DNA from: Bacillota bacterium
Lineage (GTDB): Bacteria; Bacillota; Clostridia; Peptostreptococcales; Anaerovoracaceae
Reading direction: 5' to 3'
Assembly: GCA_030525285.1 (NCBI GenBank)
Contig: JAUNFA010000002.1
Span: 1 to 64,000, forward strand
DNA length: 64,000 nucleotides
Shown: positions 4,819 through 12,562 of the stretch, one piece after another
Layout: each line of letters starts with the position of its first letter
How positions within the stretch are numbered: the first letter of the stretch is position 1
Notes under the pieces: generated by a model
Seen by the model: only the letters and a program-made list of their open reading frames with translations
Database searches by the model: none
What the model was told of the DNA's origin: nothing
Position numbers and translations under genes: made by a program

Positions 4819-5886
4819 CTAACAATTTGTAATAAGCAATTCGTTTATTTTTCCTCTTGACTTTGCTTTACTGTTTATCATTCGGTTGGCTGTTACTCTT
4901 GCAACGTTCAGATACGAGTATATGTTGTCAAAGAAGTCATCTTTTGAATCCACATTTTTAGGATCCGAATTGCTGACAACAACTTTTGCACCCTTCTCAT
5001 CCAGTCGTTTAACAAATTCGGCCAGTTCTTTCTGCTCATTGTCTCCAAATCCATTTTCCGTATATGAAGTAAAACTGGAGGTATCCGTTAACGGTCTGTA
5101 TGGAGGGTCAAAATATGCAAAGGTTCTGCTATCTATGAAGTCATAAGAACTCTTATAATCTCCACAGGAAATCCTTACTTTCTGCAGCTTCTGCGATACA
5201 TTACGCAGATTTGATTCATCACAAATCAAAGGATTCTTGTATGAACCCATAGGTACATTAAATTCACCTTTCCTGTTTACCCTATACAGACCATTAAAGC
5301 ATGTCTTATTTAAGAAAATCATTAACGCTGCCTTTGTCAGATTGCTTGACTCATCATATGATACTTTTATAGTGTTAAACAGGTTCCTCTGCTCAAGATA
5401 ATATTCCTTTCTTGATTCATTATCGCGAGGAATAAATTCTTCCTGCATTGTTTGGAGTAGTGAAATCAATTCTTCAGGATAAGCCTTTACACATCTGTAT
5501 GCATTTATTAGATCCTCATTAATATCATTAATAAAGACCTCTTTTAAATCATACTTATCCAATATATCAAACAGAACTGCGCCACCTCCCACAAAAGGTT
5601 CAGCATATTTGTTTATATTTTCATCAAATGGATAGTGCTGCTGAATTTCTGATAGCAGTTGTCCTTTTCCCCCTGCCCATTTTAAAAATGGCTTTGCCTT
5701 ACTGCTTGGTTTTTCTTCATAGCGCAAAGCTCTTCCATCTTCCGGTTTTTCAGCATTGTTAGGAATTACCCACATATTGCCTAGCATTGTTGCTTCAGCT
5801 ACTCTGCCTTCTGAGCAAAGCACCGCAACTCTCCTCTGGGAAATCCCCCATTTTTCTGCTACCTCTTTAGCTGTCAAGTACTCCAT
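4819..5886 (-). CDS. dam: Dam-type adenine methyltransferase with N-terminal HTH domain
   Basis: The 355-aa protein has two parts. Residues 1-45 form an excisionase/MerR-like helix-turn-helix (LTAKEVAEKWGISQRRVAVL, then MWVIP at 39-43). After a linker, residues 65-355 are a D12-class alpha methyltransferase: FLKWAGGK (67-74), EPFVGGG (96-102), NKTCFNGLYRVNRKGEFN (193-210) and DPPYRPL (260-266). Such enzymes make GmATC and protect against DpnII-type cutting. The fused HTH may let the methylase regulate its own operon. It is the first gene of the operon, with AAGGAGG before the ATG and a good promoter at 5910-5938. Confidence 0.92.
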   Translation of the reverse strand: MEYLTAKEVAEKWGISQRRVAVLCSEGRVAEATMLGNMWVIPNNAEKPEDGRALRYEEKPSSKAKPFLKWAGGKGQLLSEIQQHYPFDENINKYAEPFVGGGAVLFDILDKYDLKEVFINDINEDLINAYRCVKAYPEELISLLQTMQEEFIPRDNESRKEYYLEQRNLFNTIKVSYDESSNLTKAALMIFLNKTCFNGLYRVNRKGEFNVPMGSYKNPLICDESNLRNVSQKLQKVRISCGDYKSSYDFIDSRTFAYFDPPYRPLTDTSSFTSYTENGFGDNEQKELAEFVKRLDEKGAKVVVSNSDPKNVDSKDDFFDNIYSYLNVARVTANRMINSKAKSRGKINELLITNC

Positions 5887-5899
5887 GGTTACCTCCTTA

Positions 5900-5938
5900 A
5901 TTCGAATACATTATATTCTATATCGCGAATAATAGCAA
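5900..5938 (-). promoter_or_regulatory. Promoter of the dam-dpnII operon with overlapping palindromes
   Basis: On the minus strand, TTGCTA (5933-5938) and TATAAT (5910-5915) are 17 bases apart. An ATTCGAAT palindrome (5900-5907) lies just downstream, and ATTCGCGAT (5921-5929) sits in the spacer, so ATTCG/CGAAT half-sites flank the -10 box. These are candidate operators for the HTH domain of the first gene. Confidence 0.65.
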
Positions 5939-5975
5939 TATCATTTTGCATTTCCCATCATTTTATGTTTTTAAA

Positions 5976-6112
5976 CTATTTGCACAGCTTTATCAATAAC
6001 TCATCCACTGCATCTATATATCTGCCTTCCCTGATGAGCTGATTTCTCAGTTCATCAGGGCGTTTATTATGATTCCTACTTCATATTCATCAAATCTATA
6101 TTTTGTTTTCAT
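5976..6112 (-). pseudogene. Frameshifted micro-gene of about 45 aa
   Basis: Reading minus from ATG at 6112 gives MKTKYRFDEYEVGIIINAL. After a one-base slip at the CTGATGAAC region, reading continues as ELRNQLIREG and then AVDELLIKLCK before a stop at 5976-5978. The total is one base short of 46 codons, so a single deletion best explains it. The two halves together look like the small charged proteins common next to integrases in clostridial mobile elements; that link is from memory. The slip lies in a strong 14-bp hairpin (6029-6060). Confidence 0.55.
6029..6060. repeat. Strong inverted repeat at the frameshift
   Basis: CCCTGATGAGCTGA (6029-6042) pairs with TCAGTTCATCAGGG (6047-6060), with one G-T wobble and a four-base loop TTTC (GAAA on the minus strand). 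The downstream tract is CGTTTATT, so terminator function is weak at best. It lies inside the broken micro-gene and upstream of the truncated recombinase. Confidence 0.6.
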
Positions 6113-6148
6113 GTTATCTATCGCTCCCACTCTTTTTCCCTAAAGACC

Positions 6149-6790
6149 ATGAAGAACCTCTTCGGCCTCATGTGGGATTATGCTGTTATCCACGAAATAA
6201 TTACTCCGGACAAACGGGAATTAATCAGATACCTTGATATCAGTAAGCCAGGGAATCCTAACAAGATGGATAGGAAACCGTTTTCCCACAAAGAAATCTC
6301 TAAACTCTGGGATATGCAGAAAGCTAATCCATATTTTTCTGTCGCGTTGATTATGATCTATACCGGAGTAAGAATTGGTGAACTTCTGAATCTAAAAAAA
6401 GAGGACGTACACATGGAAGAACGTTGGTTTCAGATCAGAGCTGTCAAAACTGCAGCAGGTATCAGAGAGGTGCCAATTGCCGAGAAGATTGTACCTCTCA
6501 TGGAGTATTGGATCAGCCGACCATGCGAATATCTAATCTGTTCCCAATCGGACGCACATCTATCTTATTACACCTTCCGTGACACATATTGGACTCCTAT
6601 TATGAATGCTATAAGTATGAAGCACAGACCACACGATACGAGGCATAGCTGCATCAGCCTTCTGACCGAAGCCGGTGTTGACGAGAGAATTATCAGGAAG
6701 ATTGTTGGTCATAAAGGTCAAGGTGTAACCGAAACAGTATACACACATTTTGAGTTCCCTATTAAGCTTGAAGCAATCAATAAAATTTAG
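6149..6790 (+). pseudogene. Tyrosine recombinase, N-terminally truncated (catalytic domain only)
   Basis: The 213-aa frame holds a complete catalytic domain: TGVRIGELL (first Arg), AVKTAAGIREVPI (Lys beta-hairpin), HDTRHSCISLL (His-x-x-Arg), VGHKGQG (second His) and the nucleophile in VYTHF. Full-length relatives have about 150 more residues for SAM-like core-binding and arm-binding domains. Here only a helix resembling the end of the core-binding domain remains (MKNLFGLMWDYAV). The upstream frame is open for some distance but does not resemble an integrase. The start ATG has no clear ribosome binding site. It is most likely a decaying element integrase; activity as a short recombinase is less likely. 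Confidence 0.75.
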
Positions 6791-8349: not shown

Positions 8350-8772
8350 TTAATCCTCTTTTTTAAGGTTAGCCTTGAATTTCTCGAACATTTCCGGGAA
8401 TTTTCTTTTTATGGATATAGGCTTATAGTCTCCGTTTCTTGCAAAGAAGTGCATGCTGCTTCCCCTGAAGCACACCTTGTCTTCTGCCACGTTTATGATT
8501 TCATATTCGAATACCATTCTTACGCCAGTGAACTCTACAAGATCCATTCTTACGCTGAATTCATCGTCGTATCTCAGGAAATCGATAAACTGTTCATTTG
8601 CACTTACAGCCGGAATAATAACGTCCAGCTTTTCCATGTCGCAATAGTTCATCACGTGGTCCCTGATCCAATCCATTCTGGCATCCTCCAGAAGTCTCAG
8701 ATAATTGGAATGATGGACAACACCCATTCTGTCAGTTTCATAATAACGCACTCTTCGTCTGTATTCCCACAT
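8350..8772 (-). CDS. Acyl-CoA thioesterase, 4HBT hot-dog fold (YbgC/FadM-like)
   Basis: The 140-aa protein has the 4-hydroxybenzoyl-CoA thioesterase signature near the N-terminus: RYYETDRMGVVHHSNYLR with the catalytic acid and the HHSNYLRLLEDAR helix. Length is normal for the family, which hydrolyses short to medium acyl-CoAs in the cytoplasm. It starts eight bases after the XRE-ligase stop and is the last gene of that cluster, so it probably acts on the CoA esters made by the two ligases. Confidence 0.88.
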   Translation of the reverse strand: MWEYRRRVRYYETDRMGVVHHSNYLRLLEDARMDWIRDHVMNYCDMEKLDVIIPAVSANEQFIDFLRYDDEFSVRMDLVEFTGVRMVFEYEIINVAEDKVCFRGSSMHFFARNGDYKPISIKRKFPEMFEKFKANLKKED

Positions 8773-8780
8773 ATCTTCGC

Positions 8781-10658
8781 CTACTTTCTCTTCAAAAGAC
8801 CCTTTTCCATATCTTCAGCAGCTCTCGCCTTGAGAACATAATGCATTTTTTTACCTGTTGCGGTATGCGGTAACTCATCAACCAGTTTGTACCACCTAGG
8901 ACGCTTATATGTACTCAGCACAGGGCTTTCCTTACAGAATTCGATCAGTTCGCCTACAGTGAGTGACTCGTCCTTCGGAACTACGTAAGCCGCAACCGCC
9001 TGTCCTCTGACTTTGTCAGGAACAGCTGTAACCATTGAATCCGCAACCTTTTCAAAAGTATTAATTGCTTCTTCAATCTGTGTAGGGTATATATTCTCAC
9101 CGGAGCACACAATCATATCATCCTTACGTCCGGAAATTGTAACGTATGATTTGTCATCCCATGTACCCAGATCCGACGTATACATCCAGCCTTTGTAAAA
9201 TTTGCGGGCTGCCTCTTCTTCGTTGTTATAATAAGTATATGTGGTTTTGCCTGGACAACCCAGAATTACTTCTCCGACGGTTTCTCCATCCTGAGGAACC
9301 ACTTCGTCAGGCTCGGCCTTGCGGTCATCGTATACCCTTACAACTCTGACCTCGTCATCTGTGCAGCTACCGCCCACACCACCTGCGCCTTCCGGAAGAT
9401 CGTAAGGTCTGAGGAAAGAATTCCAAAAGGTTTCCGTTGTACCGTATCCGTTAAAAATATTCGGAGTCAGAACTTCCATAAACCTCTCGCATGCTGCTTT
9501 TTCGAGGGGTGCCCCCATGGTAATGATTCCTCTTATTGTACTCAGGTTGTATGGTGTCTTCTCCTGAATTCTTGAAATCATTTCGAGAGTTGCAGGAGAC
9601 CCGGTGAGGAAAGTAATGCCGTAGTCTTCAACGTATTTGAGCACGGTCTTTGCAGCAAAGCTTCTCATCAGTACCATTGTACCGCCTACATAGAACGTAG
9701 GACAGGTTCCTCCTGAATGACATCCCCCTCTGTGGAAAAGGGGTGTCATGTTCATGCACACGTCCTTCTGATTGAGCGGATAATGCATGATTGCATCATG
9801 TGCGCTGAGCACTTCGTTAATATCGTTAATCGGCACACTCTTTGGCAAGGCTGAAGTTCCGCTTGTGCACAGTCTGATTACTTCATCATAAATATGTGAT
9901 TCAAAGTCCTTGATTGGATCTGTAATTGGCTGTGAATTCACGTAATCTGTATACGTAATGTGTCCCTCTGGTACTGACACCTTATCAAGATTGTCTGCCA
10001 TAACTATTCTCTCAGGCTTATGTTCACTCTTGTTCACAGCGTCTGATACCATACCGCTGACCTCAGCCGAATATATTATAACCTTTGGTTGGTTGTGCTC
10101 CATAAGAAGAGCAAGTTCCCCATATGAAAGTTTGTAATTCGCAAGTAAAGTGATTGCACCCACCTTTCTAGGACCCACATATGCAGCACAAAATTCAGGA
10201 CAATTAGCCATTACAGCCATTACCACGTCATTTTTCCCTACGCCGTCCTCTCTGAGAGCATGTGCAAGTTTGTTCGCTTCGACATTAAACTGTCGATATG
10301 TCCACGACCTTCCGGTAAGCGGATCGATAATAGCCTTCTTACCGCCATATCTTCTCACATTTCTCATGAAACCGTTAAGCCATGTATATTCATGCTCGAA
10401 GGTTTCTCTGAACATCCTGTCGTCATATGTTCTGCTCACTTTGTTTACCTCCTTTGTATCTGCTTCAATAAGTTCTTCAACCGAAATTTCAAGAGCCCGA
10501 GCGAAGTCATTCGCCTTGCTTCGTGGCACGTCATTTTCTCCCGCCTCAATTCTGCTTATTGTAGATCTCGACTTGTATCCCATTCTTTGTGCCAGCTGAT
10601 CCTGACTGAGACCCAGTTCGTATCTTCTCCTCGCAATATTATCACCGATTGTCGACAT
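8781..10658 (-). CDS. XRE helix-turn-helix fused to AMP-forming acyl-CoA synthetase
   Basis: About 625 aa from the ATG at 10658, which has AGAGG eight bases upstream; a GTG three codons earlier is less likely. Residues 5-62 are an XRE domain (IARRRYELGLSQDQLAQRMG, then RSTISRIEAGEN). From about residue 85 to the end is an ANL-superfamily adenylating enzyme: P-loop variant RLCTSGTSALPKSV, GYGTTETFW, TSDLGTWDDKSYVTISGRKDD and the C-terminal Lys in TATGKKMHYVL. The enzyme core looks complete. Fusion to a DNA-binding domain is unusual and suggests a regulator that senses its acid or acyl-AMP ligand, or an enzyme that also represses its own operon. It lies 66 bases after the broken ligase gene. 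Confidence 0.88.
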   Translation of the reverse strand: MSTIGDNIARRRYELGLSQDQLAQRMGYKSRSTISRIEAGENDVPRSKANDFARALEISVEELIEADTKEVNKVSRTYDDRMFRETFEHEYTWLNGFMRNVRRYGGKKAIIDPLTGRSWTYRQFNVEANKLAHALREDGVGKNDVVMAVMANCPEFCAAYVGPRKVGAITLLANYKLSYGELALLMEHNQPKVIIYSAEVSGMVSDAVNKSEHKPERIVMADNLDKVSVPEGHITYTDYVNSQPITDPIKDFESHIYDEVIRLCTSGTSALPKSVPINDINEVLSAHDAIMHYPLNQKDVCMNMTPLFHRGGCHSGGTCPTFYVGGTMVLMRSFAAKTVLKYVEDYGITFLTGSPATLEMISRIQEKTPYNLSTIRGIITMGAPLEKAACERFMEVLTPNIFNGYGTTETFWNSFLRPYDLPEGAGGVGGSCTDDEVRVVRVYDDRKAEPDEVVPQDGETVGEVILGCPGKTTYTYYNNEEEAARKFYKGWMYTSDLGTWDDKSYVTISGRKDDMIVCSGENIYPTQIEEAINTFEKVADSMVTAVPDKVRGQAVAAYVVPKDESLTVGELIEFCKESPVLSTYKRPRWYKLVDELPHTATGKKMHYVLKARAAEDMEKGLLKRK

Positions 10659-10724
10659 TTTTTTCACCTCTTATTCGTTACATTACCTGACATCATCACT
10701 TCCCGACACATCCCCAGCCTTATA

Positions 10725-12395
10725 TTAGTCGTGTTTCTTATGTCCTTTCGCGCTTTCGCTAAGACGCATTGCAACCCTTCTGATTTTGCCGCTAATCGTC
10801 TTCGGCATCTCAGAAACGAATTCAACAATGTGAATCCACTTGTAGCTTGCAAGTTTGCTGTTTGCCTGATGAACAATTTCCTGTTCCAGCTGCGGAGTTT
10901 TCTCGTATCCGTCTGCCAGAACTATTGTAGCCTTAATAGCCTGACCTCTGTCTTCGTGAGGCACTCCTACGACAGCACACTCAAGAATCGCAGGATGCTC
11001 CATAAGAACATTCTCTATTTCAAAAGGTCCCACTCTGTAACCTCTAGTCTTAATAAGGTCATCCAATCTGCCTACATACCAGAAGTATCCATCCTCATCA
11101 ACTTCAGCAGTATCACCAGTATGGTACATTCCACCTCTCCACGCTTCTTCATACAGCTCGTCATTATCACAGTACCCCATGAAAATTCCCTGCTGATATT
11201 CCTTTTAGGCGTCAGGAATCACTACAATTTCACCGACTTCACCTGGTGGCACCGGTTCCCCATCAGAATTTACAACCTTTATATTATAAAGCGGACTTGG
11301 AACACCCATAGAACCTGGTTTAGGTTCCATTCCCACAAAATTCGCAAGCATAAGAGTTGTCTCAGTTTGTCCGAAGCCCTCCATGAGCTTCAGTCCTGTC
11401 TGCTCCAGTACCTTATCATATACTTCTGGGTTGAGCGCCTCTCCTGCAGTTGTCATATGCTCAAGGGATCCGAGATCCACTTTATCCATTCCGTATTTGA
11501 CAAAATATCTATACACTGTCGGCGGCGCACAAAAGCTTGTCACCTTATATTTTTCTATGATTCTAAGCAGTGATCTTGGAGTGAATCTGTGCATGTCATA
11601 AACCATTACAGCACAGCCGCAAAGCCATTGACCATATATTTTACCCCATGAAGCCTTACCCCAGCCTGTTTCAGCCAAAGTGAAGTGGAGTCCGCCATCT
11701 TTAACATTTTGCCAGTATTTCGCAGTTATTATATGAGAAAGAGAGTATGTGTGATCGTGGATTACAGCCTTCGGGTATCCTGTTGTTCCCGAAGTGAAAT
11801 ACAGGATCATTTCATCCGTTACCTTAGTATCTATTCTTTCCAGTTCTTCGGAAGCCGATTCCATTTCAGCGGTAAAATCCACGGTACCGTCCATTGTCTT
11901 TCTTACTGCAAATATTTTTTCAATCTGCGGGCATTCATCCGCTGCAGCAAGCATGTCGTTCAAAGTGTTGCCGTCAGGGGTTCCCACCATCGCCTTGATG
12001 TTTGCTGCCTTGATTCTGTATACCAGGTCCTCAACATTGAGCAGGTTTGTTGCTGGAATCATTACAGCGCCTAACTTTTCAAGAGCCGGAGCAACATACC
12101 AGTATTCATAGTTCCTTTTGAGTATTACTATAACCTTGTCACCTTTGCCTATACCATGGCTTTTGAATATATTCGCCGCCTTGTTGCTTAATTTTGATAT
12201 TTCTGAGAAGGTAAATGTTCTTTCTTCTTTGTCAACGTTGCACCAGACCATTGCTTTCTGATTGGGTGCCAACCTGGCCATCTCATCAACAACATCATAA
12301 CCAAAATTGTAATTATCGGGATAATTAAACTGAATTCCGTTAATTACACCATCATTGTCAAAAGATTCAACGATGTAATTGTTGTATAATTTCAT
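10725..12395 (-). pseudogene. Acyl-CoA synthetase interrupted by an in-frame TAA
   Basis: The frame runs 556 codons with a single stop, TAA at 11205-11207 (minus), and no frame change. The first part (396 aa) has YFTSGTTGYPKAVIHDH, AETGWGKASWGK and GFGQTETT. The second part (160 aa, from KEYQQGIF) has YHTGDTAEVDEDGYFWYVGR and KTISGKIRR with the catalytic Lys. Together they form a normal medium-chain-type acyl-CoA synthetase. The stop falls in the hinge before the C-terminal domain, so the first fragment alone could adenylate poorly or not at all. An internal ATG at 11180 could restart the second fragment but lacks a good ribosome binding site. A C-to-T change of CAA is the simplest origin. 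Confidence 0.85.
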
Positions 12396-12428: not shown

Positions 12429-12457
12429 ATTTTACAGCTTTGTTGATTTAATGTCAA
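12429..12457 (-). promoter_or_regulatory. Promoter of the acyl-CoA synthetase cluster
   Basis: Minus-strand TTGACA (12452-12457) and TAAAAT (12429-12434) are 17 bases apart, upstream of the ligase ATG at 12395. The spacer contains one copy of the ATCAACAAAG element, so a protein bound there would block RNA polymerase. Confidence 0.75.
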
Positions 12458-12529
12458 CACTTTGTTGATTGTTGTTGATTTCATATTTTCAACAAAGCAG
12501 CATGCGTTTCATTCAAAAACTCAACAAAC
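12438..12529. promoter_or_regulatory. Operator array of ATCAACAAAG elements
   Basis: CTTTGTTGAT (plus reading) occurs at 12438-12447 and 12460-12469, 22 bp apart, and as GTTGTTGATT at 12471-12480. The reverse form TCAACAAAG is at 12489-12497 and TCAACAAAC at 12521-12529. The 12460 and 12489 copies form an inverted pair. A CATGCGTTT motif also occurs twice (12418-12426, 12501-12509). The array surrounds the promoter, so it is a candidate binding region for the XRE-ligase fusion encoded downstream. Confidence 0.7.
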
Positions 12530-12562
12530 CGCAACTCTGAATCAACATCAGTGTTGCGGTTT
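12526..12562 (-). terminator. Terminator of tyrS
   Basis: AAACCGCAAC (12526-12535) pairs with GTTGCGGTTT (12553-12562) around a 17-base loop. On the minus strand it is followed by GTTGAGTTTTT. It begins 19 bases after the tyrS stop and shares its edge with the operator array. Confidence 0.65.

Follow-up and report, generated by a model that had tools for sequence, protein, structure and literature searches.

An XRE-acyl-CoA synthetase fusion in an Anaerovoracaceae genome as a candidate autoregulator of its own operon

Introduction

Can an acyl-CoA synthetase also act as the transcription factor of its own operon? The question is raised by an open reading frame in a single MAG (assembly GCA_030525285.1) of a Bacillota bacterium (Clostridia, Anaerovoracaceae). 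We analysed positions 1-64,000 of the forward strand of contig JAUNFA010000002.1, a 64,000-nucleotide stretch referred to here as the window. An earlier note on this DNA had described the frame as an XRE DNA-binding domain joined to a complete AMP-forming ligase, and had proposed that acid activation might be coupled to transcription through it. Here, we followed up this proposal by analysing the fusion, its relatives and its promoter.

Results

The fusion ORF (8781-10658, minus strand) encodes 625 aa from an ATG at 10658 in a single uninterrupted frame. A GTG at 10667 is an alternative in-frame start, and AAGAGGTG is located at 10665-10672, 5' of the ATG. Pfam matches, all above the cut-offs, follow the order HTH_3 (8.5e-11), AMP-binding (1.3e-53), and AMP-binding_C (3.9e-16). 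The HTH_3 match reaches 42.2 bits against a cut-off of 23, identifying the N-terminal domain (10470-10631, minus strand) as an XRE (Cro/CI) helix-turn-helix. It is followed by a short linker and a complete ANL acyl-CoA synthetase, consisting of the large AMP-binding domain (9252-10367, minus strand; Pfam) and the AMP-binding_C domain (8850-9080, minus strand), in which Pfam and a motif check placed the catalytic lysine (TATGK). The uninterrupted ORF and this domain order bear out the described architecture. In the AlphaFold model of the window fusion (mean pLDDT 75.6), residues 4-64 form five helices, residues 66-80 are of low confidence, and the ligase follows. The model of a paralogue, described below, was poor (mean pLDDT 59) and was left out of the analysis. 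Sequence and fold comparisons with the PDB both gave ANL ligases as neighbours of the window protein; in NCBIfam the ligase is nearest to generic long-chain fatty-acid-CoA ligases, yet below the curated cut-offs.

Motifs A3, A5, A7, and A8 and the A10 lysine are intact in the window ligase, as they are in the eight fused paralogues that were checked, and together with the 2 Pfam domains they mark the window ORF as an ANL acyl-CoA synthetase. The P-loop (TSGTSALPK, 9840-9866, minus strand) has alanine in place of glycine. The earlier note quoted this sequence (CTSGTSALPK) correctly, but its suggestion that the atypical P-loop favours sensing over turnover did not hold. The HTH-less relatives carry the identical motif, and an ordinary P-loop, TSGTTGxPK, is present in the paralogous fusions; the motif is therefore uninformative on sensing. 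We reject the P-loop as a sensing adaptation, the substitution being a trait of the clade and unrelated to the HTH.

In 80 genome loci (58-72% identity), the related ligases begin at about the window sequence TYDDRMF and carry no HTH. The closest relative, in genome G052 (79% identity), likewise lacks it. The window HTH has no close fused relative, and by sequence comparison the window fusion is atypical in its own lineage. The earlier note had pointed to a misannotated start or sequencing join as the explanation to fear, with HTH-less homologues preceded by a separate HTH gene. This concern was confirmed in part: the homologues lack the HTH and the window ligase keeps a ribosome-binding site of its own, but no separate HTH gene was seen upstream of the ligase among the ten clade A loci listed.

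A survey of domain architectures, as proposed in the note, did find genuine XRE-ligase fusions, in a paralogous ligase clade of the same genus. A different XRE domain is present there in 16 genes from 14 genomes, attached to ligases 50-55% identical to the window ligase, with no Shine-Dalgarno (SD) sequence at the ligase start. On the strength of these sequences the XRE-ligase architecture is genuine. G049 and G053 contain tandem copies of the paralogous fusion, which have diverged (L220, 6703-10485, in G053; L221, 4980-8754, in G049).

In the maximum-likelihood tree, the HTH label changes at least 3 times. The window gene falls in a large HTH-less clade, as sister (100/99) to the HTH-less G052 gene; the remaining HTH genes form a separate clade, four members of which have no HTH. 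The window HTH is 24-32% identical to the paralogue HTHs and 47-52% identical to prophage-type repressors, its closest matches. Common descent of the 2 HTH types is ruled out by the tree together with the 24-32% identity, and as read from these sequences two independent HTH gains in the genus are required. An origin of the window HTH from XRE-cupin regulators is also ruled out, the best matches being prophage-type repressors without a cupin. No paralogous-type fusion was found outside the genus in the order and class samples (about 390 genomes each), and no window-type HTH-ligase junction was found in the phylum sample (about 400 genomes; the samples partly overlap).

The next gene 3' of the fusion encodes a hotdog acyl-CoA thioesterase (4HBT, YbgC/FadM type; 8350-8772, minus strand), and this ligase-thioesterase pair is kept in many relatives. 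Upstream and in the same direction lies an MbcS-like acyl-CoA synthetase gene (10725-12395, minus strand). An in-frame TAA (11205-11207) cuts it between the two ANL domains, and the G052 orthologue is intact; the interrupted gene may be a pseudogene, a split gene or the result of a sequence error. Beside rpsI/rplM, the window also contains a phage-type integrase fragment (6149-6790, plus strand) and a D12 adenine methyltransferase gene with an N-terminal HTH_17 (4819-5886, minus strand); the region 4819-6790 is probably the remnant of a mobile element. Whether such fusions adjoin fatty-acid genes, as the note had asked, was answered positively for part of the set. A complete fab operon lies divergently to the fusion in G017 and G051, and the four HTH-less members of the paralogous clade (L230, L231, L109, and L110) are located directly behind fabF, at the end of the fatty-acid synthesis operon. 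These HTH-less members thus belong to the fab operon, and the presence of an HTH goes together with a promoter of the gene's own. Both fused and HTH-less paralogue forms are present in G016 and G002. The same order fabF-ligase-thioesterase occurs at several Ruminococcus loci.

At the window junction, an internal SD sequence, AAAGGAGGT (10447-10455, minus strand), is followed by seven bases and then GTG-AGC-AGA (MSRTYDD). This GTG (10437-10439, minus strand) is a probable internal start for a free ligase of 552 aa (MSRTYDDRMF...) and coincides with the start codon of the relatives; the G052 ligase has GGAGGAAGTCAATATGACTAGA at the position matching the window SD and start. Among the 991 in-frame internal start codons in window ORFs of at least 150 aa, it is the only one with an SD of at least 7 nt located 3-12 nt upstream. 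Because the ligase keeps its own SD and GTG inside the ORF at the relatives' start position, the window ORF likely yields two products, the fusion and the free ligase. Given the internal start, the fused form might be the minor product.

The same junction is also compatible with two adjacent genes, the first for a small XRE autoregulator and the second for the ligase. A one-base indel near 10452-10460, either genuine or introduced by assembly, would have joined their frames, and the cell would make two proteins. This reading fits the SD and GTG found inside the ORF at the conserved ligase start, and the absence of the HTH from all close relatives. Moreover, a one-base shift ends the HTH frame at a TAA that lies within AGGAGGTAA, an arrangement often seen where two genes meet, and an indel in the window, recent or artefactual, is therefore possible. 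However, the sequence as it stands has no stop or frameshift, the adjacent housekeeping genes are intact, and the paralogous clade proves that a stable fusion of this architecture can exist. We consider two separate genes rather unlikely, about a one-in-four reading in our judgement.

The predicted promoter of the operon, TTGACA-17-TAAAAT (12429-12457, minus strand), matches 11 of 12 consensus bases and is the best of the region; behind it lie the genes for the MbcS-like ligase, the XRE-ligase, and the thioesterase. Operator-like palindrome 1, TTGTTGA-N7-TCAACA (12440-12459), overlaps the -35 element and the spacer, and a pattern search located palindrome 2, TTGTTGA-N10-TCAACAA, at 12472-12495. 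Two direct copies of ATCAACAAAG (12438-12447 and 12460-12469, minus strand) lie 22 bp apart. In the 1.66-Mb genome, TTGTTGA-N4-12-TCAACA occurs at only two sites, both at this promoter, and the reversed-pattern control gave 0. The note's choice of 12430-12530 as a candidate target was therefore apt, both genome-unique palindromes being located there over the promoter. The window-type repeats are absent from the G052 MbcS orthologue, whose matching ligase has no HTH.

The paralogous fusions have candidate operators of another type. In 11 of 15 upstream regions, a pair of TGAATTATAATTCA-type palindromes is spaced by 41-42 bp and encloses a third, degenerate copy, an array with 20-22 bp steps around a promoter read from the sequence as TTGTCT-17-TATGAT. 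In the other four upstream regions (the tandem copies of G049 and G053), the sites are degenerate or missing. Across the 13 fusion genomes whose upstream region is available, 18 of 22 TGAATTATAATTCA-type sites genome-wide (at most 1 mismatch) lie in fusion promoters. In both lineages, the candidate operators were assigned from location and uniqueness only.

These sites bear on whether the window HTH is simply a non-functional prophage-repressor relic in frame with the ligase. Its similarity to prophage-type repressors and the integrase fragment about 2 to 4 kb away are in keeping with a relic, but the HTH scores well above the Pfam cut-off, and palindromes unique to the genome lie at the operon promoter and are missing from the G052 orthologue. 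We regard a relic as improbable. The regulatory role that the note gave the XRE-ligase is plausible, given the candidate operators at the promoter from which its operon would be transcribed.

We therefore put forward, with moderate confidence and from sequence-based evidence, that the XRE-ligase is an enzyme controlling the operon that encodes it. Its XRE head, on a short flexible linker, would bind the palindromic operators over the promoter, and the bound fusion would repress the MbcS-like ligase, XRE-ligase, and thioesterase genes. Palindromes are bound by XRE heads in dimeric form, and dimers are known for several ANL ligases; the ligase could therefore, and probably does, bring the two XRE heads together. 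Repression may be relieved when the ligase binds acid or acyl-adenylate, by a trigger-enzyme logic; this coupling of ligand to DNA binding is a speculative part of the proposal, little better than a guess. The window ORF would very likely also give free ligase from the internal GTG, and the paralogous clade would make the fusion as its sole product.

Autoregulation could also proceed without sensing, with the ligase acting only as a dimerisation module and repression proportional to the protein's own abundance. In favour of this version, the catalytic motifs are unchanged, the HTH is N-terminal, away from the mobile C-domain and attached through a linker of low model confidence, and the candidate operators are unique to their locus. 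That one enzyme family was fused twice independently suggests a role beyond that of a generic dimeriser, and we give the version without sensing a minority chance.

Discussion

The autoregulating enzyme proposed here may have a wider counterpart. In relatives, an enzyme of this kind independently acquired another type of DNA-binding head, which makes it probable that these enzymes regulate the genes encoding them. A tentative extension, which we would currently doubt more than believe, is that ANL acyl-CoA synthetases with XRE heads form a new class of trigger enzymes. Two or more gains of unrelated XRE heads would have occurred within one genus, each head having a dedicated operator array, and the adenylation state would set the transcription of the acid-activation operon to which the enzyme belongs and perhaps, in G017 and G051, that of the divergent fatty-acid synthesis operon. 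If true, the very common ANL acyl-CoA synthetase fold would join the few enzymes known to serve as transcription factors for themselves. One genus with HTH-bearing and HTH-less versions and defined candidate operators would make the control of transcription by catalysis directly testable through natural variants. In a full-text literature search, with most subscription papers beyond its reach, no description of a fusion between an XRE domain and an acyl-CoA synthetase came up.

The ANL synthetases in the PDB (4-chlorobenzoate-CoA ligase, FadD13, and Thermus tt0168) have the same domains and core motifs as the window protein at ~24% identity, but unlike the fusion they show no HTH match beyond the ligase region. 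In the XRE-cupin regulators (PMC7901475) an XRE head sits on a metabolic sensor domain, whereas the window protein has a whole enzyme in place of the cupin, and Pfam gave no cupin match in the ORF. Trigger enzymes, which have an added DNA-binding function, are listed for E. coli as BirA, NadR, PepA, PutA, and PyrH, a list that includes no ANL acyl-CoA synthetase (PMC8249747). By domain content, the window ORF and its paralogues likewise combine an enzyme and a DNA-binding domain in one chain. NadR and PutA are also metabolic enzymes with a DNA-binding function of their own and few target promoters, but the enzymes differ from that of the window. The Group II biotin protein ligase BirA acts as both enzyme and repressor, and biotin ligases exist without (Group I) and with (Group II) an HTH (PMC4016012). 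Pfam found only AMP-binding and HTH families in the window ORF and no biotin protein ligase domain. Versions with and without an HTH thus occur in both systems, built on the biotin protein ligase fold in BirA and on an ANL ligase with an XRE head here.
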